A stretch of DNA of 64,000 bases from Lachnospiraceae bacterium (lineage in GTDB: Bacteria > Bacillota > Clostridia > Lachnospirales > Lachnospiraceae). Location: NCBI GenBank assembly GCA_017431345.1, contig JAFRLH010000059.1, forward strand, positions 62,001 to 126,000, read 5' to 3'. Both the position numbers and the translations under genes were made by a program. Position 1 is the stretch's first letter, and the number at the start of each line of letters is the position of its first letter. The notes under the pieces are model-generated. The model saw only the letters and a list, made by a program, of their open reading frames with translations. It ran no database searches and was not told where the DNA came from. This document shows positions 12,569-29,036 of the stretch, piece by piece.

Positions 12569-15014
12569 GGCATCCGTCATGAGCGGATCACTGTTATCGA
12601 AAAAAATCATTTCGCACTCTTACAAACAGCGGGATCATATCATCCTGCTGTTTTTTCCGTTCCATTTTTCATGGTGCGAAATACTGCTCCGGGTCTTATC
12701 GGGCGCGCCGGCGTCTCCCTCCCTGCTGACCGCAGTGCTGGCCGCCTCCGGAATCGGCGCCGTATCGGGCGCTCTGCTGTGCATGATCAGGAAGCGCAGC
12801 GCCCGGGCTGCATGGATCCTTTCATCTATGCTCTGTCTTCTGTCCGCTTTATTCTTTGCGGTCGAGAGCATGCTCCGTTCGATCTTTTTCACCTATATGA
12901 CCCCCGGCAATATCCTGTCGGAAGCCGGAGATGTCGCGAAGAACTATACGGGAGAACTTGCAAGAAGTCTGCTCCCCGGTCTGTTCCGCTTTCTTCTTTT
13001 CCTGCTTCCTGCAATCGTTCTGTTCGCCTGCCTCTGCCGGGACAGCCGGAAATCATCCGGTGAAAACGCTGCGCTCCCCGCTGAGCCGCGAACATCCGTT
13101 TTTTCTTATCTGCTCTATGCCGCGGCAGGATTCCTCCTGATTTTCGGTTCCGTCTTCGTTTCCCATACCGGCCGCACAGCCAGGCTGTACGGCTCCGGCT
13201 ACAGCTATCATGCGGCTGTCGACACATTCGGCCTGGTCACCGCGACAAGGCTTGACATCGAATACAGTCTGCTGGGAAATCCGTACGAATCCTTCTCTTC
13301 CGCTGTGATCTCTTCTGATCAGGGTGAATATATGGACGAAACAGTGGCTGCGGAAACCGAAAACACAGCAGAAGGATCAGGCGATCTGACTGCTGATGCA
13401 GAGACAGTAATGACAGCTGAAACAGTATTAGCCGGAAACACCGATTCTGCTGCCGGGAAGGATGAAACTGCAGGGACAGAAAACGAGACTGTTGGCGCAG
13501 GGAGTGGAATTGCACCTGCAGAAACAAAACCCGCTGAAACAGAGAGCGAAATTGCACCTGCAGAAAGCGGAACTGCACCTGCCGGGACCGGGACTGCGCC
13601 TGCTGAAACAGAATCCGCACCTGCTGAAACGGAATCTGTTCCGCCGGAACCGGAATACAATGTCATGAATCTCGACTTCTCTCTTCCGGAACTGCATTCC
13701 ACCAAAGAGATCAGCCAGCTGACAGACTATATTTCTTCGCTTGCCCCCTCGCAGAAAAACGAATACACCGGGCTTTTTGCCGGCAAGAACCTGATCCTGG
13801 TATGTGCCGAAAGCTATTGCGACCGCTTCATTACACCGGAACTGACGCCGACGCTCTGGCGCCTCACCCATAACGGTTTTTATTTCGAAGAATACTATGA
13901 ATCGGAATGGGGCGGCAGCACGACTACCGGCGAGCTGGCATTCACGACAGGCCTCTGCGGCAACAACGGGGATGATTCCCTTTCCGGGATCGCGGCGAAC
14001 AATCATTATTTCACGATGGGCAACCAGCTGCAGCGGCAGGGTTATTCAAGCATAGCCTTCCATTCCGGCCACTATAAATATTATAAGCGCCATACGACCC
14101 ACGAAAATCTCGGCTACAACCAGTTCCTGGGCGTCGGAAACGGCATCGAGGACATCATCAGCTATGAATACGCACCGGATTCCGATCTGTTTGAAAATAC
14201 GATCCCGCTCTACCTGGATCATCAGCCGTTCAGTGTTTACTATATGACACTCAGCGGTCATGCACCGTATGTTGCGGGCAGTCCGCTTGTCAAAAAATAC
14301 TATGACAAGGTGGATGCTGTTCTCGGCGATGAATACGCGAAGAAAACGAAATATTACATCTGCTATCAGATGGAACTGGAAGCGGCCATGACGCTGCTGG
14401 TGCAGCGGCTGGAGGAAGCAGGCATTGCAGACGACACAGTGATCGTACTGACCGGCGATCATTATCCCTATGGACTCGGCAGAGGATCCACGTGGAAGAA
14501 CGATAAGGATTATATTAAGGATCTGATAAAGGGAGATGATTTTTTCCGCTGGGAGCAGGACCGCAGCGGCCTGATCATCTGGAGCGAATGTCTGGAGCAT
14601 GACCTGAAGGACAGGGTATGCAAAATCTCCGAACCGGTCGGAAATCTGGATATCCTTCCGACCATTTCCAATCTTTTCGGCGTGCCTTTCGATTCCAGGC
14701 TTCTGCCGGGACGGGATGTCCTTGCCCCGGACACCGAACCGATGGTATTCTGGAACAATTTCAGCGTCGTTGTAAAAGAAGGGAAATACGACGGCAGAAA
14801 GCTGAACTGGTATCCGAACGAAGGGTATGAATGGACCGCGGAAGATCCGGACTTTCTGGAGAATCTGCATGCGCGTGTGAACGACCGTCTGCTGATGGGG
14901 AGAATGATCATGCAGACAGACTATTACAGGCTGCTGTTCGGAGAGGATACCGTGAAGCAGGCCGGGGAAATGCTTTGGAAACCGGCTGAAGAGATGGAGA
15001 CGGAGAAAGAATAA
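12567..15014 (+). CDS. LTA synthase-like membrane sulfatase/phosphoglycerol transferase
   Basis: About 815 residues. The N-terminal third has five hydrophobic segments starting with ILLFFPFHFSWCEILLRVL, a pattern typical of LTA-synthase family proteins. A Thr/Ala/Glu-rich linker (about residues 255-365, repeats of APAETE) leads to the extracellular sulfatase-fold domain: CAESYCDRF, the nucleophile region GGSTTTGELAF (threonine near 452), HSGHYKYY and LTGDHYPYG. Such enzymes transfer phosphoglycerol to lipid-linked glycans at the outer membrane face. The start is uncertain: the longest frame begins at a TTG (12540) that is itself a -35 box, and ATGs at 12567 and 12579 lack a clear ribosome binding site. 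A hairpin with a T-run overlaps the first codons. Confidence 0.85.
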   Translation: MASVMSGSLLSKKIISHSYKQRDHIILLFFPFHFSWCEILLRVLSGAPASPSLLTAVLAASGIGAVSGALLCMIRKRSARAAWILSSMLCLLSALFFAVESMLRSIFFTYMTPGNILSEAGDVAKNYTGELARSLLPGLFRFLLFLLPAIVLFACLCRDSRKSSGENAALPAEPRTSVFSYLLYAAAGFLLIFGSVFVSHTGRTARLYGSGYSYHAAVDTFGLVTATRLDIEYSLLGNPYESFSSAVISSDQGEYMDETVAAETENTAEGSGDLTADAETVMTAETVLAGNTDSAAGKDETAGTENETVGAGSGIAPAETKPAETESEIAPAESGTAPAGTGTAPAETESAPAETESVPPEPEYNVMNLDFSLPELHSTKEISQLTDYISSLAPSQKNEYTGLFAGKNLILVCAESYCDRFITPELTPTLWRLTHNGFYFEEYYESEWGGSTTTGELAFTTGLCGNNGDDSLSGIAANNHYFTMGNQLQRQGYSSIAFHSGHYKYYKRHTTHENLGYNQFLGVGNGIEDIISYEYAPDSDLFENTIPLYLDHQPFSVYYMTLSGHAPYVAGSPLVKKYYDKVDAVLGDEYAKKTKYYICYQMELEAAMTLLVQRLEEAGIADDTVIVLTGDHYPYGLGRGSTWKNDKDYIKDLIKGDDFFRWEQDRSGLIIWSECLEHDLKDRVCKISEPVGNLDILPTISNLFGVPFDSRLLPGRDVLAPDTEPMVFWNNFSVVVKEGKYDGRKLNWYPNEGYEWTAEDPDFLENLHARVNDRLLMGRMIMQTDYYRLLFGEDTVKQAGEMLWKPAEEMETEKE
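12624..12656 (+). terminator. Terminator/attenuator-like hairpin inside the LTA synthase-like ORF
   Basis: AAACAGCGGGAT (12624-12635) pairs with ATCCTGCTGTTT (12642-12653) with one G-U pair and a CATATC loop, followed by a run of T to 12656. It is a textbook intrinsic terminator shape, about 55 bases after the promoter at 12540-12568. The upstream GGATCACTGTT (12585-12595) resembles the 3' arm and could pair with the 5' arm instead as an antiterminator. It may instead be the terminator of the Fn3-like gene. Confidence 0.55.
13470..13650 (+). repeat. Imperfect coding repeat (APAETE linker)
   Basis: Near-repeated units with the pattern gcacctgcwgaaacng encode Ala-Pro-Ala-Glu-Thr-Glu-type peptides in the linker between the membrane and catalytic domains of the sulfatase. 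Low-complexity repeats of this kind change length easily. Confidence 0.7.
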
Positions 15015-15110
15015 GCCTTGATTCCGTAAGCAAAAAAAGATACGATGGACAAGTGCCGGAGGAAAGATCGAAAATCCGGGGAATGCCGGAGAAGCGAACA
15101 GGAGCTTTTT

Positions 15111-16493
15111 ATGGAACGACACGCAGCGCATACACATTTGCATCATCACCACGCAAATACGACAGCCAGAGATATGACATCCGGTCCGATCCTCTCGCAG
15201 CTCGTTCTGTTTGCCATCCCTCTTCTTCTTGGAAATGTCTTCCAGCTGCTCTACAGCATGGTCGACACACTGGTCGTCGGGAATTTCGTGAGCACCCAGG
15301 CACTGGCGGCGGTTGGTTCCACAACGATGATCGTCAATACGATCGTCTTCTTTTTCAATGGTCTGTCCATAGGCGCTACTGTGATCATCGGCCAGAATTA
15401 CGGTGCAAAGGATGAAGACGGTCTGCATATTGCCGTGGAGACCACCATGGCCATGACATTCATTGTAAGCGTGATCTTCACGATCATCGGCGTCGCTTTT
15501 GTCGGCCCGATGCTGCGTTTTATGTCCACGCCGGAAGATGTCATTCCGGACGCCACGGTCTATCTGCGGATCTACTTTGCCGGCATTTCCGGTCTGATGA
15601 TCTACAACATGGGCAGCGGAATCCTGCGCGCGGTAGGCGATTCAAAACGTCCGCTGTATTTTCTCGTCTTTACCAGCGTTATCAATACCGTGCTGGATCT
15701 GTTCTTCGTGATCGTACTGCACGCGGGGATCGCCGGCGTGGCATATGCCACCATTCTTTCCCAGTTCCTTTCGGCGTTCCTGGTCATGCTGCTTCTGACC
15801 AAAACAGATGACATCTACAAACTCACCTGGCACGATCTGCGCCTGCATATGCCGACCTTCCGCAAGATCATGGGCGTAGGCCTTCCCACAGCGATCCAGT
15901 CTACGATCACCGGTTTCTCCAATGTCTTTGTGCAGTCATATGTAAATGTCTTCGGTTCCGCCTGCATGGCCGGCTGGAGCTGTTACAACAAGCTCGACCA
16001 GTTCATTTATCTGCCGATGCAGAGCCTGGCGAACTCCGCGACCACCTTTGTCAGCCAGAATATCGGCGCGAAACAGGAAGATCGCGCGAACAAGGGAACG
16101 TCACGGGCTATCTTCCTGGCAATGGGCATCACTGCCGTGATCGCGACTATTCTTGTTGTGTTTGCAGCTCCTGCTACCGGGATCTTCACAGACGATGCGG
16201 CTGTCATTGCTTACGGTTCTTTGTTCATCCGCATGAACACGCTGTTCCTGATCATGAACTGCGTAAACCATGTACTGGCCGGCGCTCTCCGCGGCAGAGG
16301 GGATTCCAAAGCGCCGATGTTCATTATGCTCGGCACTTTCGTTGCCCTGCGGCAGATCTATCTTTTCACGGCAACGCACTTCTTTGCGAACACAGAGATC
16401 ATCGTCGGCCTGGGCTATCCCGTCGGCTGGACCAGCTGCTTTATCGTGGAAGTCAGCTATTTCTGGTGGAAGTATATCAGGAAGAAAGCGTAG
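15111..16493 (+). CDS. MATE family multidrug/Na+ antiporter
   Basis: A 460-residue, 12-helix exporter of the MATE (NorM/DinF) type. It shows the two-fold MatE repeat, with GPILSQLVLFAIPLLLGNVF opening the first half and MGVGLPTAIQSTITGFSNVF opening the second. Also visible are MVDTLVVGNFVSTQALAAVG and LRAVGDSKRPLYF. The ATG at 15111 has AGGAG 6 bases upstream; an ATG at 15045 in frame lacks one. The N-terminus before the first helix is histidine-rich (HAAHTHLHHHHANT), unusual for the family and possibly metal-binding. It probably exports cationic compounds in exchange for Na+ or H+. Confidence 0.93.
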   Translation: MERHAAHTHLHHHHANTTARDMTSGPILSQLVLFAIPLLLGNVFQLLYSMVDTLVVGNFVSTQALAAVGSTTMIVNTIVFFFNGLSIGATVIIGQNYGAKDEDGLHIAVETTMAMTFIVSVIFTIIGVAFVGPMLRFMSTPEDVIPDATVYLRIYFAGISGLMIYNMGSGILRAVGDSKRPLYFLVFTSVINTVLDLFFVIVLHAGIAGVAYATILSQFLSAFLVMLLLTKTDDIYKLTWHDLRLHMPTFRKIMGVGLPTAIQSTITGFSNVFVQSYVNVFGSACMAGWSCYNKLDQFIYLPMQSLANSATTFVSQNIGAKQEDRANKGTSRAIFLAMGITAVIATILVVFAAPATGIFTDDAAVIAYGSLFIRMNTLFLIMNCVNHVLAGALRGRGDSKAPMFIMLGTFVALRQIYLFTATHFFANTEIIVGLGYPVGWTSCFIVEVSYFWWKYIRKKA

Positions 16494-16540
16494 ATCGTTC
16501 GGGACAGGGATCCCTCAGGATGACATATTTTGTTCGCATT

Positions 16541-17509
16541 TTAGTTTCCCGCACTGCTGACGGTCTCCAATAGTTCTTCAGCCGCAATCCTATATTCTGC
16601 CGTTGACTTTGCTTTCATGATCCTTTTCAGCTGTTTTTTGTTCTCCGGAAAATTCTCCCCCAGATAGAACCACAGTTCTTTCATCTTGTGAACGACATTG
16701 TTTTCTTCATGGATCACTTCTCTGTACGCTTCGAATAAAGCATTCAGATACTGTGCCAGTTCATCCTTTTCAAGCTGCGGTCCGCCTTTCATCTCCCGCA
16801 CCAGCGCCGGATTTCGGATCAGGCCGCGGCCGATCATGACGGAATCCAGGCCGGGGAAGCGTTCTTCCAGACGGATCAGATCCTCCGGTGCGAACAGATC
16901 TCCGTTATAACTGACCGGATGCACACTTGCGGCAAGCATTTCCCCGAAGGTATCCAGATCCGGTTCCCCTTTATAAAAATCCACTCTCCGCCTGGCGTGA
17001 ATGATCAGCCTGCTGATCGGATACCGGTTGAAGATTTCCATCAGACGTACCGATTCTGCTGCCTCTTCCACCCCGATCCGGGTCTTGACGGATAGACGGA
17101 TATTCTTCTCGGAAAGACTGCTGTCGGCATTGATCCCGTTAAAAACGCCGTCAAAAAAGCGGTCCAGCTCCTCCGGCACGGACAGAAAGCCCGCGCCTTT
17201 CTTTTTTGACACTTCCGTCGCCATCGGACAGCCGAGGTTGAAGTTCACTTCACAGTATCCCAGTTCCGCAAGCATCTGCAATGCGTTCAGGAACTGGTCC
17301 GGTTTATTGGTCAGCACCTGCGGCACGGCAGGCACTCCCGCATTGTTCGCCGGATCGATATCCTTCCGTTCTTTCTGTTTAAAGCTCATTGTCTGGTTTG
17401 CCACAATGAAAGGCATGTAGTACGCGTCGATGCCGGGGAACCGTTCATGATGAACACGGCGAAAAGGATATTTTGTGATGCCCTCCATGGGCGCGAAAAA
17501 GAATTTCAT
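16541..17509 (-). CDS. dus: tRNA-dihydrouridine synthase
   Basis: A 322-residue FMN enzyme that reduces uridine to dihydrouridine in tRNA D-loops. It has FFAPMEGITKYPFRR at the N-terminus, the catalytic loop VNFNLGCPMATEVSKKKGAG (active-site Cys), LSVKTRIG, LIIHARRR, VSYNGD and SVMIGRGLIRNPAL. The C-terminal helical domain (about 245-322) is the tRNA-binding part. It belongs to the DUS superfamily; the exact DusA/B/C class cannot be fixed here. It is convergent with the MATE gene, 47 bp apart. Confidence 0.92.
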   Translation of the reverse strand: MKFFFAPMEGITKYPFRRVHHERFPGIDAYYMPFIVANQTMSFKQKERKDIDPANNAGVPAVPQVLTNKPDQFLNALQMLAELGYCEVNFNLGCPMATEVSKKKGAGFLSVPEELDRFFDGVFNGINADSSLSEKNIRLSVKTRIGVEEAAESVRLMEIFNRYPISRLIIHARRRVDFYKGEPDLDTFGEMLAASVHPVSYNGDLFAPEDLIRLEERFPGLDSVMIGRGLIRNPALVREMKGGPQLEKDELAQYLNALFEAYREVIHEENNVVHKMKELWFYLGENFPENKKQLKRIMKAKSTAEYRIAAEELLETVSSAGN

Positions 17510-17589
17510 ACTCTCAGATCATCTCCTGCAATCTGTCCGGGAATCCGCAGAGGTTCTGCGTTTCCTTCCGGGTTTGACGATCGGGTACC

Positions 17590-17684
17590 GGAGAACCGTC
17601 CCCTGCCCCCGCTGACTCCCCGGCTCTCTTCATCATAGCATACTTCTCAAAAAAAATTCCTGCCCGTTTCACAAAAACGGCAGG
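17590..17684 (-). terminator. Hairpin with minus-strand T-run, plus a repeat fragment
   Basis: CCTGCCCGTTT (17659-17669) pairs with AAACGGCAGG (17675-17684) with one bulged base; on the minus strand it is followed by eight T. It could stop leftward transcripts coming through preA before they enter dus. The bases gagaaccgtcccctgccccc near 17590 are a fragment of the dispersed GGGACGGTTCT hairpin family. Nothing else is seen between dus and the preA remnant. Confidence 0.55.
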
Positions 17685-17809
17685 TCATTCCCCTGAAAGA
17701 GCAGGAAAAATAATGCATCATAATACCGCATATGGTATAGTATTTTATGATCAGGAAAACCGCACTGCAAGCCATACTTCTATCAGATTACTTACAGGAG
17801 GACAAATCC

Positions 17810-18740
17810 ATGATCATGACCGAACCATCTATACGCCGCATAGAAATGATTCACTGCGCATTGTGCAGCAGTGCTCCCTGCGATGCCGCATGTCCTGCTG
17901 TAAAGCCGGCAGGCCTCCTGCGCAGCATCTGGTTTGATAATGAGCAGGGCGCCGTATCCCGGCTCCCCGCTGAAAATCCGTGCCTCTCCTGCAATGCGCC
18001 GTGTGAAAAAGCATGTGTGCGCCCCGGCCAGGTCGGAATCCGGGATCTTATCACCAAACTGTATGAGCAGGTAAAGCCGGCTGTGGAAACGGCCGTACCT
18101 GAAGATGAAGACAGACTGGCCTGCAGTCTGTGCGGGATCAGGCTCGAAAATCCGTTCCTGCTGTCGTCTTCCGTTGTGGCCAGTACGTATGACATGTGTG
18201 CCAGGGCTTTTGAAGCCGGCTGGGCCGGCGCCGCCTTCAAAACGATCTGCTCCTTTGATATTCATGAAGCATCTCCCCGTTTTTCCGCTGTCACCGGCGA
18301 CAACGGCAGCATTATCGGCTTTAAAAACATCGAACAGCTTTCAGACCACAGTGTTGCCGAGAACATGGAGATCTTCCGGAAACTGAAGAAGGATTATCCG
18401 TCCAAAGTGATCCTGGCGTCCATCATGGGACGGGACGATGCGGAATGGGAATCCCTCGCCGGGCTCTGCGAAGAGAACGGGGCGGATGCCGTTGAGCTGA
18501 ACTTCTCCTGTCCGAACATGGCGGACGGCGGTCTGGGATCGGATATCGGCCAGGTGCATCGGCTGCGGCAGGTGCATGATCTCCTGCAGCGACGGAGGGC
18601 ATCAGGCGATCCGGCTGGATTCCGCACGCAGGCCGAAACTGAACGGAAAAAAATGCGTCGGCTGCCACCTCTGCATCCTGGTATGTCCGCAGAAAGCGAT
18701 CCGCCCGGGACGAAAACGGATCAGCCGAAAACAGAAATAA
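17810..18740 (+). pseudogene. Internally deleted dihydropyrimidine dehydrogenase/DHOD-type Fe-S protein (PreA-like)
   Basis: The start has AGGAGG 8 bases upstream. Residues 1-90 hold cysteine clusters (CALCSSAPCDAACP, CLSCNAPCEKACV) like the PreT N-terminal Fe-S domain. Residues about 100-250 are the first half of a PreA/DHOD barrel (LENPFLLSSSVVAS, AGWAGAAFKTI, VELNFSCPNMADGGLGSDIGQ). Then the barrel stops and the frame breaks. In the +1 frame from about 18553 the PreA C-terminal ferredoxin domain is intact: RCIGCGRCMISCSDGGHQA and KCVGCHLCILVCP, stop at 18738. Roughly 180-200 residues appear deleted. CAGGTGCAT occurs twice at the junction. The protein would not be functional. Confidence 0.85.
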
Positions 18741-18761
18741 GGAGACAGGAACCCTGTCTCC
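18741..18761. repeat. GGAGACAGG hairpin between two broken genes
   Basis: GGAGACAGG (18741-18749) and CCTGTCTCC (18753-18761) pair across AAC. It sits exactly between the stop of the preA remnant and the stop of the azlC remnant. It resembles the GGAGACA...TGTCTCC element at 25445-25471. Confidence 0.7.
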
Positions 18762-18763
18762 TT

Positions 18764-19036
18764 TCACACAAGCAGCTGTATCAGGATCATATCCGGGATC
18801 AGGAACCGGTCCGGGACGAATACGGCAAGGCTGATGACCGAAGCGCCGCCGGTAATCAGGCTTACGCCTATATACTGCATGGATCCGGCGTAGATCAGCA
18901 AGCTCATCAGGAATGCCCATACGACGCCATAGCCTGCATTGCGGAGCAGAATACCAAAACCGATCCCGAGGACAACACAGCCTGCCATCACCGGAACCGA
19001 TTTGATAAATGCCTGTTTTGTTAAAGATCGTTTCAT
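18764..19036 (-). pseudogene. azlC: Truncated branched-chain amino acid exporter (AzlC, possibly fused to the AzlD end)
   Basis: The 90-residue product starts as a normal AzlC: KQAFIKSVPVMAGCVVLGIG, NAGYGVVWAFLMSLLIYAGS and QYIGVSLITGGAS. It then ends after about 20 unrelated residues (ending IPDMILIQLLV), whereas AzlC is about 230 residues. The tail resembles the hydrophobic C-terminus of AzlD (typically YMxLxQ), so an in-frame deletion joining the start of azlC to the end of azlD is possible; that is inference. AGGAG lies 10 bases before the ATG. It converges on the broken preA gene 23 bp away. Confidence 0.75.
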
Positions 19037-19067
19037 TCGCTTTCCCACTCCTGACATATTCGGTGGT

Positions 19068-20069
19068 TCACTGCTCTTTTCCGTTCCTGGCATACCCTGT
19101 ATCCCACTGCGCATTCCCGCTTTCGGCATAGCGGGTAAACATTTGTGCATAGACTTTAGGAAGGTTCTCTTTCGCCAGCAGGACCCCGCTGCTGTCGGGC
19201 ACTTCCGCTGCGGCGTGTCCCTGCGCTTCTTCCGCGCCGGGGAAAAGAGGATTTGTGCTGCCGGCGACGTAAAACCGTCCAAAAAGATAATAACCATAAA
19301 TAAAAAAGCCATCCTCCGAAGGTCCGTAAATAATGGCATCCTGCCTGATCGTTTCCACCTTCCCGACCCACGGATATCCCAGCTGTGTTTCCACGCCGGC
19401 AAAAGCCTCCTGCAATTGCGGGATGGGAATCCGAAGTCCCGGGACCGTCTGTATTTCCGGCGTCAGTGTGTTGAAAGGATTGCTGCCGTCCCCCAGCTTC
19501 CACAGGCAAATGCTTTCTATCAAAAGCATTGTCGCGACCATCACAGACGGTACGCTGATCTGTTTCCAAACCGCAAATGCAATCCCGAAAAGGCTAAGGA
19601 AAACCGCTGCAGCCCGAAACGCAATGGCTGACAGTCTATGTCTTTCCAGCGTTCTGCACCCGCTCCCTGCCATGGCAAACAATACCAGCGCTTCGATCAC
19701 CAGAAGCATTGCGATCATTATACTGCGGCCGCTGCCCTGATCCTGCATGATACCGTACAGACCCGCCGCATTCAGAAGTACGCCGGACACAGTATAAATC
19801 AACAGGACCATCATTTCCCCCGCTGCACCGGACGGTGCATCGAAGGAAAAGCCGAGGCGGAAGAAACCGATGCAGAACAGAAAGGCGGACAAGCCAAAGA
19901 GCAGGTAAAAGAAAACGCCGATTCTGTGCGGAAGCAGAAACAGGATCCCATAGGATGCCATGAGACAGACGATATCAAAAATCCGTTCTGTCAGCACTTC
20001 ATTTTTCTTTTCTCTTTTGTCCTTCCTATGCATCTCCTCTTCCCTTTCATGCAGCGCTTCCCTGATCAC
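19068..20069 (-). CDS. Uncharacterised polytopic membrane protein with C-terminal soluble domain
   Basis: Up to 333 residues. After a charged N-terminus (EREEEMHRKDKREKKNE) come about six hydrophobic helices (residues 28-195). A C-terminal domain of about 120 residues follows with FNTLTPEIQTVPGLRIPIPQ, GYPWVGKV and IYGPSEDGFFIYGYYLFGRFYVAGS. I do not recognise the family. Two starts are possible: GTG at 20069, or ATG at 20033 preceded by AGGGAAGAGGAG, which is the better ribosome binding site. It lies 31 bp upstream of the azlC remnant on the same strand. Confidence 0.65.
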   Translation of the reverse strand: MIREALHEREEEMHRKDKREKKNEVLTERIFDIVCLMASYGILFLLPHRIGVFFYLLFGLSAFLFCIGFFRLGFSFDAPSGAAGEMMVLLIYTVSGVLLNAAGLYGIMQDQGSGRSIMIAMLLVIEALVLFAMAGSGCRTLERHRLSAIAFRAAAVFLSLFGIAFAVWKQISVPSVMVATMLLIESICLWKLGDGSNPFNTLTPEIQTVPGLRIPIPQLQEAFAGVETQLGYPWVGKVETIRQDAIIYGPSEDGFFIYGYYLFGRFYVAGSTNPLFPGAEEAQGHAAAEVPDSSGVLLAKENLPKVYAQMFTRYAESGNAQWDTGYARNGKEQ

Positions 20070-20154
20070 CCTATTGAATGGCAGTACGTCCGAGAGTTGT
20101 TATACTGCCATGATATAGGAAAATATATGCTTTATCAAGAGAAGCAAAACAGAG

Positions 20155-20206
20155 AGGAGAGCGGGGACGGTTCTGTGTCTCTTCTCAGAACCGTCCCCGC
20201 TCTCCT
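20155..20206. repeat. GGGGACGGTTCT inverted repeat (REP-like)
   Basis: AGGAGAGCGGGGACGGTTCT (20155-20174) and its exact complement (20187-20206) are separated by GTGTCTCTTCTC. The ggggacggttctgtgtctc core is a sequence type I know as a dispersed palindromic repeat in many anaerobic Firmicutes. Here it lies between two minus-strand genes. Confidence 0.85.
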
Positions 20207-20224
20207 TTTCCCCCCATCTATATC

Positions 20225-21595
20225 TCACCGGAGTTCCGGTGCAATATAGCCATACTCTTCGGCCGCCTTCTTCTCCAGCGCGTTCAGCTCCAGATTTGCC
20301 ATGAAGGCGTGCGTCCCGATACCGAAATTCGCTTCCGCGATCTCACTGATCCCGCCGAAGTTCCCGTCGAGATAGCTCATCTTCTCATCCAGGATCAGGC
20401 GGCATTCTCCTCTTTTGTAAGCGATCGCCATATCCGTCGGCACGTAAAAATGATTCTTATTGCCGATCTTCGTCAGGAAATCACCGACTTCAGCGATGAA
20501 CGTTTTCAGATCCATATCCGCACCATATGCCCCGAAGGACAGCGCCAGTTTTTCGATCGGTGCGGCACCTGCTTTCGGCACGAAGATATGAGATACTTCA
20601 AATGCCCTCGCGGACTGCTCGCCGGCTGCCCATTTCTCACTGAGGATCTGCTCGATCGCCGGCGTCAGCACAGTCGGCAGCCCGGTATTTCCGCCGAGCG
20701 GGTCTTTGAGCAGCACGCCCTTGTTGTTCAGATCCCATTCATCCTGGATCATGTTCATCTTTTTGTAGATGCCGTCCGGATAGATCTTCGGGCCGAAGCC
20801 TTCCGAATAGCCCATCGTGCGGAGCACGTCCCGGCAGCGGTCTTCGAATGCTTCCGAGCCGGATACAGTGCCGTCAGTGAACTGTGCCAGGAATTCCTGT
20901 CCGTTATTGAACAATTCTTCCCTCTTTTCCAACCCCAGCCATCTGACAGCCGCCTGATCCAGATCGATCGAAAATGCATATTTCCCGGCTTCCGCGTCTT
21001 TGCATCCCAGTAGCGCCTCGCCAAGCCAGGTCATCGTACCGAAATACCCCAGCGCAAATGTCTCTCCTTCCGGATCTGTGACGCGGATCTCCCATGTCAC
21101 AGGCTCCTTCAGCGTATTCTCGCTCATGGCGTTGCTCCCCCAGGAAGCCATATCAGACTGCTTCACAGGCTGTCCGACGCTCACCAGTTCCGCATCAAAA
21201 GCTGCGCCGAGAGCGCCTTTTACGATCTTCTTCCACAGGACGCCCAGATCATACAGGTTCATCTTCGTTGCCAGAACGCCTTCGGCAACACTGTGCGCCG
21301 GATACTGCTCATCCGCTGCATCAAAGATTTTGCCGAATGCGGCTGCAAGCGCCTGTCCGTTTCCCTGCACTTTCGGCAGCAGGAACGGGAGAATCTGCGT
21401 TCTCAGGGCGTATTCACCGTTCATCAGAAGGACCGGTTTTGCTGCTTCCGGCTTCCCGAAAACAGGCAGATTGATCTCTGTCTTCTCCAGTTCGGGAAAT
21501 GTTCCGTTATCGTATAAATCAAATCCCGCCAGCGCAAAGGATCTCTTAAAGGCATCCGCAGTGATCCGTAAAGGATGTTTTGTCATGTTCTTCAT
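20225..21595 (-). CDS. Single-chain PheS-PheT-like paralog, active-site degenerate
   Basis: A 456-residue protein. Residues 1-250 follow bacterial PheS: HPLRITADAFKRSFALAGFD, YALRTQILPFLLP (residues 62-74; PheS has LLRTxTSxxQ), AFGKIFDAADEQYPAHSVAEG (PheS GRVYRxDxxDxTHxPMFHQxEG) and KYAFSIDLDQAAVRWLGLEK, ending FLAQF. The motif 2 arginine is absent and motif 3 GxGxER reads SIDLDQ, so the ATP-binding arginine is replaced by Gln214. Residues about 258-456 follow the PheT B6-B7 core (RCRDVLRTMGYSEGF, LPTVLTPAIEQIL, ARAFEVSHIFVPK, AFMANLELNAL). The PheT B1-B5 and C-terminal anticodon-binding domains and the PheS coiled coil are missing. The start has GGAGG upstream; the gene follows an enoate reductase gene by 19 bp. 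Function unknown. Confidence 0.8.
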   Translation of the reverse strand: MKNMTKHPLRITADAFKRSFALAGFDLYDNGTFPELEKTEINLPVFGKPEAAKPVLLMNGEYALRTQILPFLLPKVQGNGQALAAAFGKIFDAADEQYPAHSVAEGVLATKMNLYDLGVLWKKIVKGALGAAFDAELVSVGQPVKQSDMASWGSNAMSENTLKEPVTWEIRVTDPEGETFALGYFGTMTWLGEALLGCKDAEAGKYAFSIDLDQAAVRWLGLEKREELFNNGQEFLAQFTDGTVSGSEAFEDRCRDVLRTMGYSEGFGPKIYPDGIYKKMNMIQDEWDLNNKGVLLKDPLGGNTGLPTVLTPAIEQILSEKWAAGEQSARAFEVSHIFVPKAGAAPIEKLALSFGAYGADMDLKTFIAEVGDFLTKIGNKNHFYVPTDMAIAYKRGECRLILDEKMSYLDGNFGGISEIAEANFGIGTHAFMANLELNALEKKAAEEYGYIAPELR

Positions 21596-21614
21596 TTTCC
21601 TTCCTCCTTCCCGG

Positions 21615-23606
21615 TCAGATGCGGTTCCCGACCTGCCAGCCTTCCAGGATGGCATCGCCGATGTTTCTCTTTTCATTGCAGCGGATCTTCATGGTGCAGT
21701 CGCCGATCTCATAGACTTCCATTTCCTTCTCGCGAAGCTCGTCCGCGATCGCCGTTTTTCCGGTATAGCCGCGGCAGATCAGCATGCTGTCACAGGGGAC
21801 CAGTTCTTCCTGTTTCGTCCTCAGGTCTTTCAGCGTTACGCCTTCCGCCGAGACGCCTGCCACATCTTTTCCGAGCTTATACTTTATCCCTTTCTGCGCA
21901 TTGAGGATCATCAGACGCTGCTGCTGAGGTGAAGAGTTGTCATTTCCGATCTCCATCACGCCCATCATGCCGCCTCCGCGCCTGGACGCGACCGTCACCT
22001 TTTTGCCTGCTCTGAGCAGGGACTGCGCGACTTCCAAATTCATGAAGCAGCCGCCGGCGATCAGGATATTCTCACCGAGATCATAACTGTCAGGAGACTT
22101 ACAATAATCGTAAATGCTGTGTACCTGCAGATCTGTCTGCTTCTCGTATTTTGTAACGACCGGCTTCGCGCCGACAGCAACGATAACTGCATCAAAACCG
22201 CCTGCTGCAATAGCCTCTGCCGAAGCCTCCTCTTCGATCACTTTGACGCCGCGGACATTCATCTGCCGCACATAATAATCGATCAGGATCTTGATATCAC
22301 TCTTCAGTTCATCGCTGAAGGCAGCTTCATGCATCGTGCCGCCGAGCTTCCGTTTCTCATAAAGCGTGACATCGTGGCCCCTGAGCGAGGCGACGCGGGC
22401 TGCCTCCATGCCCGCCGGACCGCCGCCGATCACGCAGATCCTCTTCTTTTCTTCTGCCGGCTCCACTTTTCGGAAGTTCGATGTATTACAGAGCGGATTG
22501 ACGGAACATCTGAGTCCGATGGCAGCGTTAAAGCCTTCGATCGTTCCGACGCAGCCCATGGTACAGCGGATGCAGGGAACGATATCGTCTCTCTTGCCGG
22601 CTTTGATCTTTTTGATCCATGCCGGATCAGCCAGCGCCGGTCTTCCGATGCCGATGAAATCGGCAATGCCGGCTTCCAGCGTTTCCTCGGCAAATTCCGG
22701 GGTGGTAAATCCGCCGTCCAGGATGATCGGGATCTTCACGCCAGCATCCTTGATGGCTTTCGCCGAAGGAATATAATCGCCGCGCTTGTCATACTGTGCA
22801 TTGATCACACGGACATTGTTGGAATCGCCGCCCACCAGGTGCAGCGCCACGATCCCGGTCTTCTCCAGCTCCTTCGCGTGAATGATGCCTTCTTCGATCG
22901 AGATATCCACGGGATCGAAGGAATCCGGGCAAATGCGGCCGATGATCGGAAAGTTCTTTCCGCAGGACTTCTGACATGCTTCGATGATCTCGACCATGAA
23001 GCGGATCCGGTTTTCCGGGCTTCCGCCGTACTTATCCGTTCTGTGATTGTACTGCGGCGAACAGAACATGTTGATCAGATGGCCGATCGCGCCGTGGATC
23101 TCAATGCCGTCAAATCCGGCCATCTTTGCCCTCCAGGCAGCTTTCCCGAAGTCGTCAATGATCTGGTTGATCTCCGGGATCGTCAGGCCGCGGATCGGGA
23201 ACGGACGGATGCCGCCCTGCATTTCGAACATTGTGGACGGGCCGAGCGACTCCTTGCGGTCCGCCAGGGAAAGCTGATGGCCGATATGACAGAGCTGCAG
23301 GATCGCCGCTGCGCCCTGATCCTTGATGGTGGAAGCCAGTCTCGCCATGCCGGTGATCTGGCCGTTGTCGTACAGACACATGACGTTGTCCTCTCCTCGG
23401 GAGAGATCGTCATCCGTGGCGGTACATTCCACGATCACCATTGAGAGGCCGCCTTTCGCCTGATCTTTATAGAAAGCCAGCGCGTTATCTGTAATATAAC
23501 CGTTGGAATCGGCGTTCAGCGATCCCATCGGGGCCATGATGAGCCGGTTTTCGAGTGTGAGCGGGCCCATCTTGGCTCTTTCCAGTAATTTCTTAAATGC
23601 TGTCAT
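21615..23606 (-). CDS. Old-yellow-enzyme/2-enoate reductase type FMN-FAD-[4Fe-4S] oxidoreductase
   Basis: A 663-residue protein. Residues 1-370 are the OYE barrel (LENRLIMAPMGS, LQLCHIGHQ, FDGIEIHGAIGHLINMF, NHRTDKYGGSPENR). A cysteine cluster CIRCTMGC with RCSVNP downstream binds one [4Fe-4S]. Residues about 395-663 form an FAD/NAD(P)H domain (ICVIGGGPAGMEAARVAS, ILIAGGCFMNLEVAQSL). Relatives include 2-enoate reductase, 2,4-dienoyl-CoA reductase, BaiCD/BaiH and cinnamate reductases. The usual HGAHGYL reads HGAIGHL, so the proton-donor tyrosine is a histidine. Substrate is unknown; an alpha,beta-unsaturated acid or ketone is likely. It leads the operon with the PheS-PheT-like gene. Confidence 0.88.
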   Translation of the reverse strand: MTAFKKLLERAKMGPLTLENRLIMAPMGSLNADSNGYITDNALAFYKDQAKGGLSMVIVECTATDDDLSRGEDNVMCLYDNGQITGMARLASTIKDQGAAAILQLCHIGHQLSLADRKESLGPSTMFEMQGGIRPFPIRGLTIPEINQIIDDFGKAAWRAKMAGFDGIEIHGAIGHLINMFCSPQYNHRTDKYGGSPENRIRFMVEIIEACQKSCGKNFPIIGRICPDSFDPVDISIEEGIIHAKELEKTGIVALHLVGGDSNNVRVINAQYDKRGDYIPSAKAIKDAGVKIPIILDGGFTTPEFAEETLEAGIADFIGIGRPALADPAWIKKIKAGKRDDIVPCIRCTMGCVGTIEGFNAAIGLRCSVNPLCNTSNFRKVEPAEEKKRICVIGGGPAGMEAARVASLRGHDVTLYEKRKLGGTMHEAAFSDELKSDIKILIDYYVRQMNVRGVKVIEEEASAEAIAAGGFDAVIVAVGAKPVVTKYEKQTDLQVHSIYDYCKSPDSYDLGENILIAGGCFMNLEVAQSLLRAGKKVTVASRRGGGMMGVMEIGNDNSSPQQQRLMILNAQKGIKYKLGKDVAGVSAEGVTLKDLRTKQEELVPCDSMLICRGYTGKTAIADELREKEMEVYEIGDCTMKIRCNEKRNIGDAILEGWQVGNRI

Positions 23607-23674
23607 AATGTCTCCTTATTTTCTGACGCTTCCCACAAAAGCGTATGTTCAGCCAATCCGCCGCCTGCTTTCCT

Positions 23675-23851
23675 CTTTGTCAAACACATTCCCGGGCCTT
23701 CCTGCAATGGCACTTGTCAACCGCCACTTGCCTGCTGCCATCTTTGTCAAACACATTCCCGGACCCTTCCTGCAATGGCACTTGTCAACCGCCACTTGCC
23801 TGCTGCCATCTTTGTCAAACACATTCCCGGACCCTTCCTGCAATGGCACTT
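23675..23851. repeat. 68-bp tandem repeat, about 2.6 copies
   Basis: Units begin with ctttgtcaaacacattcccg at 23675, 23742 and 23810 (spacing 67 and 68) and are otherwise nearly identical; the third is cut after tgcaatggcactt near 23851. Because 68 is not a multiple of three and every frame is broken between copies, it is not coding. On the minus strand each full unit carries two TTGACA sequences. It lies just upstream of the oxidoreductase gene that starts at 23606. Confidence 0.9.
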
Positions 23852-23888
23852 ACGCAATCCGTGCACAGATCGGTATAATTTCTGCTTT

Positions 23889-24078
23889 ATGGTCTTCAGC
23901 TGTGCACAAACAAGATTCGGCCGACAAATTATGGTCTCTTCATTGTGCATACATTAGCTATTTATTTCTTTTTAGGATCCGCTTTTCAGCTAAATTCTGT
24001 ATTTTCCTGGTCAAAAGCATGCATATAGCAGACCTTAATTTTTCCTAAAGATATCTTTTGTGCACGGTGACAGACCAT
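23889..24078. promoter_or_regulatory. Three copies of an operator-like motif ATGGTCT-N6/7-GTGCAY
   Basis: Copies are at 23889-23907 (ATGGTCT, 6 bases, GTGCAC), 23931-23950 (ATGGTCT, 7 bases, GTGCAT) and, inverted, 24060-24078 (GTGCAC then AGACCAT). Further TGTGCA or TGCACA boxes occur near 23861 and 24103. They fill the 556-bp gap between the SDR gene and the oxidoreductase operon, together with the tandem repeat. Binding of a regulator, perhaps the divergent AraC protein, is inference. Confidence 0.45.
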
Positions 24079-24162
24079 AATTATTAACTATGAAGGTTTC
24101 TATGCACAAAGCAGGCAGAAAATGCTGATCAAATCCCGTTGTGAGAAGCTTCTCTGCCAAAA

Positions 24163-25152
24163 TTACCTTCCCCAGCCGTAAGCCTTTCCCGGCGCCTTGT
24201 AATCCGGGCCGAGCATCTCTTCCTTCACTGCTTTCCGCAGTTCTTCCACATTCCACCAGGGCCCTTTGTCGCCGTTCGTGATCATGGTTCCGAGCTCCGG
24301 CTGACTATACGCCTGGAATCTGCCGGATGATTTGATCGAGAAGATCGAGCCATTGATGTAGTCATCCAGGCAGAGCACTGCGCAGAACGGCGCCAGGTTC
24401 GCGGGATCGCCGTGATCCGCTTCGACAACGGCCAGCACCTTCGGATCCGGCGCGTGACCGGCTGCCGTGATCTGTCTGATCAGCGCATTATATTCCACCG
24501 CGTGGGAAGGAGATTCGCCCTGCGGGCAGATGCAGTTGACAGTGATGCCGAACTGATCCAGTTCCTTCGCTGCCGCCCATGTCAAACCGACCATGGAAGC
24601 AGTAGATGCGCTGTAGCCGTCATTGTTCGCCAGGCCTGTCCAGGCGTCGCTGGAAACATTGATGATCCTGCCGTATCCCTGCTCCTTCATATAAGGAAGG
24701 GCGAAATGCATCAGTGCCACGGCGCCTTTCGCACGGCTGCCCATGAAAAGATCCCAGTTCGCTTCATCCATCGTGGCAATATCGCCGGTGCCCATGCCGG
24801 CAGCGGAATTGACGATGATATCGATTCTTCCCCAGGTATCAACTGCCGTTTTTACCATTTCCTCAGCGGTCTTCCAGTTAGAGCAGTCTCCGTAAAAGGC
24901 TTTCGCCTCACCGCCCTCTGCGATAATGGCATTTGCCGTTCCTTCCGCATCGCCTTTCAGCCTGCAGAATTCCGCCCAGTCTTCTTCCGGCATGTCTTCT
25001 TTATGGTATTTCTGTGCGGAAAGACCATTCGGCTTCCTGTTGTTCGTGATGACCTTCGCACCGAGTCTTGCGAGACCGATGGCAATGCCTTTGCCGATTC
25101 CCTGGCCGGATCCTGATACGATTGCAACTTTTCCTTCCAGACACTTTTCCAT
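24163..25152 (-). CDS. Short-chain dehydrogenase/reductase-like protein lacking the catalytic lysine
   Basis: A 329-residue Rossmann protein. The cofactor motif SGSGQGIGKGIA is near the N-terminus, then NSAAGMGTG and INVSSDAWTG. The active-site tetrad is altered: the usual YxxxK reads YSAST, with Tyr180 present but Thr184 where lysine is expected (codon ACT). Related proteins include (3R)-hydroxyacyl-CoA dehydrogenase and hydroxysteroid dehydrogenase-type SDRs. The C-terminal 60 residues (PWWNVEELRKAVKEEM to AYGWGR) extend beyond a minimal SDR. AAAGGAG precedes the ATG. A small palindrome TAAGAATAATCTTA (25178-25191) lies just upstream. Redox activity is doubtful without the lysine. Confidence 0.85.
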   Translation of the reverse strand: MEKCLEGKVAIVSGSGQGIGKGIAIGLARLGAKVITNNRKPNGLSAQKYHKEDMPEEDWAEFCRLKGDAEGTANAIIAEGGEAKAFYGDCSNWKTAEEMVKTAVDTWGRIDIIVNSAAGMGTGDIATMDEANWDLFMGSRAKGAVALMHFALPYMKEQGYGRIINVSSDAWTGLANNDGYSASTASMVGLTWAAAKELDQFGITVNCICPQGESPSHAVEYNALIRQITAAGHAPDPKVLAVVEADHGDPANLAPFCAVLCLDDYINGSIFSIKSSGRFQAYSQPELGTMITNGDKGPWWNVEELRKAVKEEMLGPDYKAPGKAYGWGR

Positions 25153-25321
25153 TTCTGCTCTCCTTTTCTTTTGATTATAAGAATAATCTTACAACCGCAG
25201 CAAATTTATACTATTACTATAGCCAAGTGCCGGATTTCAGGATATAATAAATCTGCAGAAATACGTCCATTTCTGCAGAATGTGCAATGGATGAAACTGT
25301 CGAATTTGTGAAAAAACCCGT

Positions 25322-25486
25322 TGTCATTCTGAGGGCAGCTCGCTGTCCGAAGAATCCACCGCGTACCGTCTTCGGTTTCAGGAAAACCGCCGGCTGCAAA
25401 GCGAAGATCCTTCGGCGCTTCTGCACCTCAGGATGACATCGTAGGGAGACACGGAACCGTCCCCTGTCTCCTCAGGATGACATCGT
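25322..25486. repeat. Dispersed cattctgag/ctcaggatgaca repeat with inserted GGGACGGTTCT-type hairpin
   Basis: The stretch from tcattctgagggcagctcgc (25325) to cttctgcacctcaggatgac (25437) matches the widespread palindromic repeat family with ends TCATTCTGAG and CTCAGGATGA and inner gaagaatcc/gatccttcg. Its right end CCTCAGGATGACATCGT (25426-25442) is repeated exactly at 25470-25486. Between the two copies lies a 27-base piece containing GGAGACA...TGTCTCC and ggaaccgtcccc. This looks like one repeat element inserted into another with a 17-bp target duplication, or a tandem duplication. It fills much of the 416-bp gap between the SDR and AraC genes. Confidence 0.75.
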
Positions 25487-25568
25487 GCGGAGCCGCAGCA
25501 AATGAAACAGAGAGCGCGGGAGAACCATCCTCTTCTTTGTTTCTCCGGCTCCCTGGAGGTATCGATCT

Positions 25569-26735
25569 ATGGAAAGAATTCTGGATCCCGATGAAATTCT
25601 CCGCCTGTTCTATAATTCCTTTAAGATTCCCGCCGGCCTTTTCGACCGTTCCGGCAAGCTGCAGAAGCTGTTTTTCAACAGCGGCGCCAAACTGACGAAA
25701 CTGTACCTGGCGGATGCAGATACAGTGCTGCACAATTCTTTCAGCCGCGGTTCCGATGGCAATTCCGGCTATCCTTCTTCCAGCCCCAACGCTCACGACA
25801 GCGGCGTTTTCGGTGAGTCGGCCGTTCTTTTACTGGACGAAAATGGATCCTGTTGGTGTGTGATCCCGTATCATGAAGAAAGGATCCTGCTCGGGCCTGT
25901 CCAGACCGGCCGCAATCCGCTGTTTGCCTATGAAGGAATCCCCGAGCATACCGGTAAAGGCTTTCATAACATCGCGCGTTACGTCGTTTCTCTTCTTCAC
26001 AGTGAGGACTGTCCGCTGACCGACCGGGAAGATGCCTATACGGAAGCATTTGCTGCCAGGCACATGTACAGCAAAGCCTATGCCGATATTGAACTGCAAA
26101 GCTTTGACGACCTTTTCTTATGTGTTATGACCGGTGACAGGACCCGGCTCGATACCCTCCTGCACTCCGGCAGCTATCTGCGCTACCTGGACAGCGTCAT
26201 GACCGATCTGCAGACAGCAAGAACGGTCTTCCAGTTCAATCTCGCCAAAACATACCACAGCGCCCAGCAGTCCCGCGCCTCGATCAGCGACCTGACACCG
26301 CTCGTGGATATGTATCTCTCGGAATCCGCCGGCTACAGATCCCTGGCGGCTTTTAAATCCGGCATGCTCCGCATGCTTTATGACTTCACACGCTATGTGA
26401 GTCAGTACAGGGATGATCGTTATTCTCCTCTGGTCAACCAGGCGATCATGTTCATCCGGGAGAACATCTATGCCCAGCCGACGGTCGAAGAGATAGCAGC
26501 GCACTGCATGGCCAGCCTCTCCACCCTGCAGCACCGTTTCAAGGAAGAGACCGGCATGTCCGTAAAAGAAAAAATACGCCGGTCCAAGATGGAACGGGCG
26601 TGCTTTTTCCTGAAAAATACAGATTTGTCCTGCAGCGATATCGCTTACAGGATGGGGTACGGTTCCCAAAGCTACTTCATCAAACAATTCCGCAGCATGA
26701 CCGGCATGACGCCGGCGGAATATCGAAGGCAGTAG
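25569..26735 (+). CDS. AraC-family transcriptional regulator
   Basis: A 388-residue protein. The last 100 residues form the double helix-turn-helix: FIRENIYAQPTVEEIAAHCM, LSTLQHRFKEETGMSVKEKI, LSCSDIAYRMGYGSQSYFIK and FRSMTGMTPAEYRRQ. The N-terminal 280 residues (ILRLFYNSFKIPAGLFDRSG onward) are a PAS/GAF-like sensory domain often found in clostridial regulators of uptake and catabolic genes; no cupin is seen. GGAGG lies 9 bases before the ATG. It is divergent from the SDR gene and the best candidate to control the SDR, oxidoreductase and PheS-PheT-like genes. Confidence 0.9.
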   Translation: MERILDPDEILRLFYNSFKIPAGLFDRSGKLQKLFFNSGAKLTKLYLADADTVLHNSFSRGSDGNSGYPSSSPNAHDSGVFGESAVLLLDENGSCWCVIPYHEERILLGPVQTGRNPLFAYEGIPEHTGKGFHNIARYVVSLLHSEDCPLTDREDAYTEAFAARHMYSKAYADIELQSFDDLFLCVMTGDRTRLDTLLHSGSYLRYLDSVMTDLQTARTVFQFNLAKTYHSAQQSRASISDLTPLVDMYLSESAGYRSLAAFKSGMLRMLYDFTRYVSQYRDDRYSPLVNQAIMFIRENIYAQPTVEEIAAHCMASLSTLQHRFKEETGMSVKEKIRRSKMERACFFLKNTDLSCSDIAYRMGYGSQSYFIKQFRSMTGMTPAEYRRQ

Positions 26736-26874
26736 GAGCACCGCAATTATGATCACTGGTTTAGCCGGCAGTTTCCTCTGCGGCTATAAGCCGCTGTTCA
26801 CTGTTTGCCCCTAAAGTGGCTCTGAATGGTTCGCTTCCCGCACTGCGGTCACAAGCAGACGCTGAAGAGTTGTT

Positions 26875-27618
26875 TTACTGTCTCTTCCCAACCAGTTCAC
26901 CCTGGCTCCGCAGGATCTGCTTGTTCATAAACGCCAGCATCGCTTCCGCAGCTTCTGCCTGCTGTCTTTCACGGCTGATCTGTGCCGTTCCGTCACCTTT
27001 CTGCTCTCCGTAATTGCCGAACTGTGCATGATTGCCGCCTCTGATGACCACTTTTTCCGGCTCTTTCGAAAAGAAGCCATCCCCGGCCTGCAGCTTGTCC
27101 GCATTCAGGACACCGTCTTCACTGCCATAGATCTCGATTGCTCTTTCATCCACCGCTTCCGTCGGATACGATGCCAGCAGGATCAGCCCGTCCAGATCAT
27201 TTTTCCCGGCAAAGGAAGCCGCCATCGCCCCGCCGAGCGAGTGTCCGCCAATGTACCAGTGATCATACTCATGCTGTGCCATCACCGCGGAAGCTTTATT
27301 CGCCCCGAAGACCGCCAGGTTGGCCGGCATTTTTATCAGGAAACAGTCGATCCCGCCTTCCGCCAGACGGCTAAGCAGCGGAACATAGGCTGTATACTCT
27401 ACTTTCCCGCCGGGATAAAAGATCAGCGCAGTCTCCGTCCCCGGACCGTCCAGGAACAGGCCTTCTCCGGTCTCCAAGATTCCAACATCGTCTTCCGTAT
27501 CTGTAAGAAACGCGCGGACATCATCGGAAGCATGATAATAATTCAGCACATATGCCGCGCCTCCAATCAAAACAACCATTATACCAGCCAGAATGAACAG
27601 AAGAATCCTTTTTTTCAT
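26875..27618 (-). CDS. Membrane-anchored alpha/beta hydrolase
   Basis: A 247-residue protein with an N-terminal signal anchor (MKKRILLFILAGIMVVLIGG). The hydrolase domain has ALIFYPGGKVEYTAYVPLLS, FLIKMPANLAVF, the nucleophile elbow GGHSLGGAMAA and a C-terminal GGNHAQFGNYG with the catalytic histidine. This matches the Abhydrolase_5 type of small, often dienelactone hydrolase-like enzymes, acting outside the membrane. The substrate is unknown. It is alone on the minus strand, separated from the glycyl radical operon by 420 bp. Confidence 0.85.
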   Translation of the reverse strand: MKKRILLFILAGIMVVLIGGAAYVLNYYHASDDVRAFLTDTEDDVGILETGEGLFLDGPGTETALIFYPGGKVEYTAYVPLLSRLAEGGIDCFLIKMPANLAVFGANKASAVMAQHEYDHWYIGGHSLGGAMAASFAGKNDLDGLILLASYPTEAVDERAIEIYGSEDGVLNADKLQAGDGFFSKEPEKVVIRGGNHAQFGNYGEQKGDGTAQISRERQQAEAAEAMLAFMNKQILRSQGELVGKRQ

Positions 27619-28038
27619 TTCAAATCCATACTTCCGCTTTCTATCGGATATGACTCCGTCGCATCCCGGATCAATTTTGTGCGAACCGGAATGATTTTCA
27701 GACTACAGGTACCCCACGACTTATACTATAACATACTCTCTCAATAAAAGATGGGCATATTTAGCAGCAATTATTCACCAAGGTACCCCTTTGCCCGCAG
27801 TTTTTCAATTTATTTCATCAGACAACCGGAGAAAACAGGGTACCTGTTCGAACATTTATTTCTGATTTCGCACAAATCAACACAACCAATTCTCTATAAA
27901 TCCAAAGCCGGGGTACCTTCATCCATTCAACAGCTATATTTTGCACAAAATGCCATCCTCACATCTCCGCATGAAAAAGACCAGAGAATTCCTCTCTGGC
28001 CATGGCTGCATTCTGCTCCATTATATATGCTGATCTGC
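27619..28038. other. Intergenic region with four GGTACC palindromes
   Basis: No gene is supported. GGTACC occurs at 27708, 27782, 27839 and 27912, about one every 68 bases. TTTGTGCGAA (27676), TTCGCACAAA (27868) and TTTTGCACAAAA (27939) add a second recurrent palindromic box. The region lies 5' of the alpha/beta hydrolase and 3' of the activase gene, so it probably regulates the hydrolase. A terminator for the activase gene is at its right end. Confidence 0.4.
27973..27999 (-). terminator. Terminator of the glycyl radical operon
   Basis: On the minus strand CCAGAGA (27999-27993) pairs with TCTCTGG (27987-27981) and is followed by TCTTTTTC, 40 bases after the activase stop. Confidence 0.65.
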
Positions 28039-29022: not shown

Positions 29023-29036
29023 AATGCCTCCCGAAA

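Follow-up and report, generated by a model that had tools for sequence, protein, structure and literature searches.

Organization of the PHX locus

The analyzed window, 64,000 nucleotides of a contig from a Lachnospiraceae bacterium (JAFRLH010000059.1), carries on its minus strand, which the original prediction had not specified, a gene (20225–21595) for a protein of 456 amino acids, here termed PHX. Its ATG start codon is located 19 bases past the stop codon of the upstream gene and is preceded by a GAAGGAGGAAGG stretch. This directly upstream gene (21615–23606, minus strand) encodes an old-yellow-enzyme (OYE)/2-enoate reductase-type flavoprotein with a CX2CX3CX14C motif. The next gene (24163–25152, minus strand) encodes an SDR-like protein that has kept the nucleotide motif and carries Thr in place of the Lys of YxxxK. 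A gene for an AraC-family regulator (25569–26735, plus strand) is oriented divergently; in 8 of the 18 database loci (L040–L047) a relative lies close to the module.

A 68-bp tandem repeat (23663–23851, 2.8 copies, 95% matches) lies between the SDR and OYE genes and could represent regulator sites or a local duplication. At 17747–19402, a dihydroorotate/dihydropyrimidine dehydrogenase-like frame seems to lose its reading frame around 18.6 kb and borders on an AzlC-like frame of the opposite strand; both names were given by eye and are presumptive.

PHX joins a PheS-type and a PheT-type core in one chain

Database members of the PHX family were collected by a pattern-based scan of contigs from 84,980 species, which yielded 18 loci as a lower bound. 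The alignment used below comprises 17 rows, the window protein and 16 of these 18 loci; L040 (99% identical to the window protein), the partial L057 and a copy from genome G904 were omitted.

Profile-profile comparison (hhalign) matched the N-terminal half of PHX (residues 1–238; 20882–21595, minus strand) to the catalytic core of PheS with an E value of 2.9e-14, and the C-terminal half (residues 239–456; 20228–20881, minus strand) to the catalytic-like module (CLM) of PheT with an E value of 1.3e-18. No cross-match (N-half to PheT or C-half to PheS) appeared in this comparison. Across the 17 members, PF17759 and PF01409 were the only Pfam families matched, PF17759 in all 17, and structure models agreed with the assignment of both halves. 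A phmmer search of the single PHX sequence against PDB sequences returned noise only. A descent from HisRS was rejected on the basis of the exclusive Pfam matches in the 17 members and the hhalign matches to PheS and PheT. Profiles, Pfam and structure models thus concur with the original prediction of a PheS core followed by PheT B6–B7 in one 456-residue chain, and it is practically certain that the two halves are a PheS catalytic core and a PheT CLM.

Loss of the charging apparatus

Inspection of the PheS half revealed that the residues expected for adenylation have been lost. In the segment equivalent to motif 2 (residues 88–106; 21278–21334, minus strand), the profile alignment places GRVFRAD...FHQIEG of PheS opposite GKIFDAA...SVAEG of PHX, so that Asp occupies the Arg position; a second aligned pair in the same alignment sets FAFGIGLERIAL opposite YAFSIDLDQAAV. 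None of the 17 members has Arg at this position (D in 15, H in 2), and the motif 2 Glu position is occupied by E in 11, Q in 5 and A in 1. A hand alignment had located motif 3 at the GYFGTMTWLGEALL stretch; this was dropped, since the profile alignment leads to AFSIDLDQAA (residues 207–216; 20948–20977, minus strand), in which the Gly and Arg positions are replaced. Both glycines of the motif (G-x-G-x-x-R) are gone in all 17 members, and the Arg position holds R in three (L043, L046 and L050) and is variable in the other 14. Moreover, in the profile alignment of the window protein, a GQP stretch with gaps stands opposite FPFTEP in the PheS of the same genome; the FPF segment is the phenylalanine-pocket segment of PheS. 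Since the motif 2 Arg and the motif 3 Gly residues, in most members also the motif 3 Arg, and in the window protein the FPF counterpart are lost, the PheS-type adenylation site is gone. The replacement of both motif arginines had been noticed in the original prediction; it extends to all 17 aligned members for motif 2 and to 14 of 17 for motif 3, with the motif 3 glycines lost throughout. On the profile alignment neither an intact motif 2 or 3 nor a placement outside class II was found.

The predicted absence of anticodon-binding, editing and coiled-coil domains was likewise borne out. The two cores fill the 456 residues, leaving out the coiled coil, B1–B5 and B8, and no Pfam match to anticodon-binding, B1 or editing domains was obtained in the 17 members, in which no further Pfam family was detected. 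The window genome contains its own separate pheS and pheT genes, which the original prediction had proposed to look for; they are situated on the contig of PHX at a distance of about 50 kb. A pheS gene was also found in 15 of the 18 PHX-bearing database genomes, in 13 of the 18 above the family cut-off. Judged by these sequence features, PHX very probably does not charge tRNA.

Two side results concern pheS. In one assembly (G867) two pheS matches were detected (L073 and L076), of which the first or second carries a TGA in frame while its counterpart scores below the family cut-off. A lead towards pyrrolysine was discarded, as the two weak matches with in-frame TAG in G182 and G151 are pheS genes ending in TAG.

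Purifying selection and a shift of conservation to the PheT half

In six close pairs of PHX genes dN/dS ranged from 0.064 to 0.150, rough values, as three pairs have a dS above 1 and two of the six share L043; in each of the six pairs the ratio was lower for the C-half than for the N-half. All 17 aligned members have open frames at identities down to 39%. At the level of sequence, PHX is under strong purifying selection, and decay is disfavoured. One additional copy in the Coriobacteriia genome G904 (L079:9359–10669, on a 3.4-Mb contig) is interrupted near residue 103 by an in-frame TGA and is adjoined by full-length OYE and SDR frames and a regulator-like gene. Because of this TGA, PHX may be dispensable in this genome, or the sequence may be wrong.

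The number of residues invariant among the 17 members is 43 of 218 in the C-half versus 12 of 238 in the N-half. Comparison of the aligned invariants with the parental proteins revealed that 31 of 38 in the C-half differ from the PheT majority residue, and that 6 of 10 in the N-half are identical to the PheS majority residue. An Arg kept in 28 of 28 PheT proteins is an invariant Pro in the C-half of PHX. The PheT-half loop (residues 272–293; 20717–20782, minus strand) has 11 invariant residues and includes the most striking invariant stretch of the protein, Y-K-K-M-N-M-I-Q-x-x-W-D-x-N-N-x-G (residues 277–293). In the structure model, residues 281–291 have pLDDT values below 50, and this stretch might be a mobile loop or an interface. 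The CLM of PheT is itself non-catalytic. As conservation has shifted to the PheT half, a new function in this half is suggested; since the family-specific invariants are found there, the decayed site in the PheS half does not imply a functionless protein.

PHX occurs together with an OYE and an SDR-like protein

The conserved OYE and SDR-like partners had not been mentioned in the original prediction. In 17 of the 18 database loci, an OYE gene is found no more than 1.6 kb from PHX; the contig of the 18th (L057) starts inside PHX. In nine loci (L040–L048) OYE directly adjoins PHX, and in eight (L049–L056) it lies 1.3–1.6 kb away, with a regulator-like gene in the gap in all six cases inspected. 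This regulator-like gene was named by eye; the one scanned had no Pfam or NCBIfam match. An SDR gene is present on 13 of the 18 PHX contigs, the remaining five of which stop inside OYE or PHX. The window adds one more complete module to these 18 loci.

The order of the genes varies between branches. The tandem arrangement SDR-OYE-PHX with a divergent AraC gene is found in the window, L040–L043, L046 and L047. PHX is divergent from the regulator-like gene and OYE, with SDR behind OYE, in L051–L053, L055 and L079, and has the same divergent orientation with SDR behind PHX in L049 and L050. In L044, genes for a GltD-like oxidoreductase and for an NAD kinase lie between SDR and OYE in one run of genes, with an MFS transporter gene before them. 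Protein distances from 13 loci correlated with r = 0.956 for PHX-OYE, 0.905 for PHX-SDR and 0.868 for OYE-SDR, and none of 2000 permutations reached a value as high for any of the three pairs; this covariation is owed in part to shared species history. The recurrent neighbourhood and the correlated distances make it highly likely that PHX is a member of a co-inherited module with the Fe-S OYE and the SDR-like protein.

The module OYEs contain the domains Oxidored_FMN and Pyr_redox (FMN and nucleotide), and the four-Cys motif CX2CX3CX14C is kept in 17 of 17 sequences covering that region. All 16 of the 16 sequences examined share HGxIxHL, the His of which presumably occupies the position of the Tyr proton donor of other OYEs. 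For the OYE of the window, the best NCBIfam scores were obtained with Mycofactocin OYE 2 (348 bits), the long form of bilirubin reductase (338 bits) and BaiCD (322 bits), all far short of the respective cut-offs of 793, 750 and 825 bits. A link to mycofactocin was unsupported: the OYE score falls far short of that cut-off, and a mycofactocin radical SAM maturase above cut-off was found in 0 of 10 genomes and equally in 0 of 14 controls, so that the search had no positive control; sub-threshold radical SAM matches occurred in 9 of the 10.

The window genome encodes a second OYE (L085:7336–10511, G000 contig C16), 53% identical over 660 residues; the SDR beside it has kept YxxxK and is extended at its N terminus, and no PHX is present on that stretch. 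Because the genome has only one PHX in all, an OYE of this kind can do without PHX, and because the second OYE also has HGxIxHL, this motif is not specific for the module. In the module SDRs the Lys of YxxxK is lost in 14 of 14 (YxxxT in 11, YxxxN in 3), the Tyr and the nucleotide motif being kept. Such SDRs exist as well without PHX on the contig (L086 and L087); that of L086 (6239–7696; G673, another genome of the family) is of the YxxxN type and is fused to a C-terminal cupin domain.

Distribution of PHX

Among 195 relatives of the window genome, 90 gave some match, and full-length PHX was present in three only (G000, G003 and G010), each belonging to the genus of the window; the other matches are PheT or PheS as judged by frame length and matched range, two having been checked by sequence. 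In overlapping samples, PHX was found in 2 of 397 genomes of the family (E values up to 1e-12), in 1 of 391 genomes of the class (the window genome itself, with the N-half as query) and in 2 of 246 genomes of the class of G870, G870 included (E values up to 1e-25). The titles of the 18 loci name Lachnospiraceae, Solobacterium/Erysipelotrichaceae, Eubacteriaceae, Dorea and Coriobacteriales, taxa that we assign to Bacillota and Actinomycetota; a ruminant gut site is named in four (L043, L047, L048 and L055), the other titles being silent on this, and, going by the titles, almost every copy stems from a metagenome-assembled genome. Rarity and taxonomic scatter suggest horizontal spread. Scans of phages, plasmids and viral contigs, the viral ones with short exact peptide patterns, revealed no relatives of PHX.

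Proposed role of PHX

With its origin, the loss of the charging apparatus, the selection acting on it and its module established from sequence comparison, we propose, with a probability of about 0.5, that PHX, a pseudo-synthetase derived from pheS and pheT, was repurposed to bind, and perhaps convert, a small molecule of a reductive pathway. As the sequences show, a PheS core and a PheT CLM were joined in one chain imitating one alpha-beta unit of PheRS, the tRNA-handling parts were shed, the PheS half lost its residues for adenylation, and the protein became fixed under strong purifying selection as third component beside the Fe-S OYE reductase and the SDR-like protein. The working site is probably located in the PheT half and may comprise the K-M-N-M..W-D-.-N-N-.-G loop, PTVLTP, K349, NHF, D403 and NFG. 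Most likely, PHX would bind a pathway substrate or intermediate and present it to the reductase, or, in between the reduction of the C=C bond by OYE and the SDR-like step, it would itself carry out chemistry of a non-redox kind (isomerisation, racemisation, hydration or elimination). We lean, with a probability just short of even, towards such a binding or non-redox subunit rather than a sensor. More doubtful is the stronger version, in which a fused PheRS lost its tRNA and ATP chemistry, acquired a new active site in the formerly non-catalytic beta module and took up an enzymatic role in reductive metabolism of the gut; if true, activity would have left the alpha half for the beta half within one protein.

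The main rival of the binding or non-redox subunit is a regulatory subunit similar to HisZ, in which PHX would act as a sensor of an aromatic acid or amino acid and exert allosteric control over OYE or SDR, without any chemistry of its own. There is precedent in HisZ, a HisRS paralog without adenylation activity that is described in the consulted part of a review as the regulatory subunit of HisG (PMC9437257), and the position of PHX directly behind OYE in the tandem branch, as well as its distances, which track those of OYE most closely, would fit such a role. However, the C-half invariants that are new relative to PheT, many of them charged or polar, fit a binding or catalytic site at least equally well, and the PheS half, in which a site for a phenylalanine-like ligand would be expected, is the less conserved one and lacks FPF in the window protein. 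We therefore consider a sensory role possible but doubtful.

Less probable still is an ATP-dependent ligase activating an amino acid or carboxylic acid at a non-standard ATP site, comparable to aa:CP ligases, AS-A and PoxA. Several class II paralogs are such ligases according to the same part of the review (PMC9437257), and the invariant K279, K349, D288 and D403 could in principle handle phosphate or a metal. In the PheS half, however, the motif 2 Arg and the motif 3 glycines are absent from every member and the motif 3 Arg from most; in the C-half the Arg of all PheT proteins compared has become Pro, and the motif 2 Arg of PylRS falls opposite a hydrophobic residue in a weak alignment (E 0.07).

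A PheRS fragment in decay or an artefact of metagenome assembly, for which the prevalence of metagenome-assembled genomes and the TGA in G904 might speak, is very improbable in view of the uniformly open frames, the low dN/dS and the recurrence of the same partner genes in separate assemblies. Equally improbable is any role connected with tRNA, whether as an auxiliary PheRS, in charging a special tRNA or in trans editing: PHX does descend from PheRS, but adenylation residues and matches to anticodon-binding, B1 and editing domains are missing, and no tRNA gene was found in the window or between the module genes of the 13 loci scanned, where the four tRNAs seen lie 1.7–4.5 kb before the SDR gene. 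No link to a structured RNA was detected with Rfam in positions 15000–30000 of the window.

Comparison with known systems

PHX resembles bacterial PheRS (PF01409, PF17759) in both domains, alpha followed by beta, by profile and fold. It differs in its single chain, in the lost adenylation residues, in the absence of coiled coil, B1–B5 and B8, in the other invariants of its CLM half and in its position beside redox genes. No description of a single-chain fusion of PheS and PheT (PF01409 and PF17759) was found in the open-licence PMC literature, which agrees with the original statement that no described family has this layout.

An aaRS-derived domain without adenylation residues, together with a housekeeping synthetase in the genome, characterizes PHX as an aaRS-like pseudo-synthetase. 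As far as the consulted part of the review describes them (PMC9437257), HisZ and other aaRS-like proteins share with PHX such a domain, a metabolic gene group and a housekeeping synthetase elsewhere; PHX is distinguished by its origin from a two-subunit PheRS and by its partners, an OYE and an SDR-like protein. This 2022 review lists functions of duplicates for 15 of 21 synthetase families and cites surveys that found duplications in all of them; in the part consulted, PheRS, PheT and phenylalanyl have 0 occurrences. Synthetase paralogs that have taken on new functions are known for many amino acids, and none named there derives from PheRS. Whereas aaRS-like proteins as such are already known, a PheRS-derived fusion in a redox module is without a described counterpart that we could find, and PHX keeps both PheRS subunit folds within 456 residues. 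The lost charging residues and the two reductase-type neighbours suggest that a piece of the translation apparatus has been put to use in the metabolism of small molecules.

The equol pathway provides an analogy to the module. As described in the consulted part of the source (PMC10297411), it includes daidzein reductase (DZNR; a 4Fe-4S-containing OYE), dihydrodaidzein reductase, which is an SDR, and a racemase. The resemblance lies in an Fe-S OYE and an SDR, which in that pathway share a substrate, with a non-redox racemase among the enzymes. By these descriptions the two systems are set apart: the OYE motif is CX2CX3CX14C here and CX2CX3CX12C in DZNR, the SDR here is without the Lys, and the third gene is a PheRS derivative. 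The equol genes show that the combination of OYE, SDR and racemase exists in gut bacteria; as an analogy, this is silent on the substrate here. That PHX recurs beside a Lys-less SDR and an Fe-S reductase points to a reductive pathway of gut bacteria not described so far, for which the module offers a small three-gene test system.
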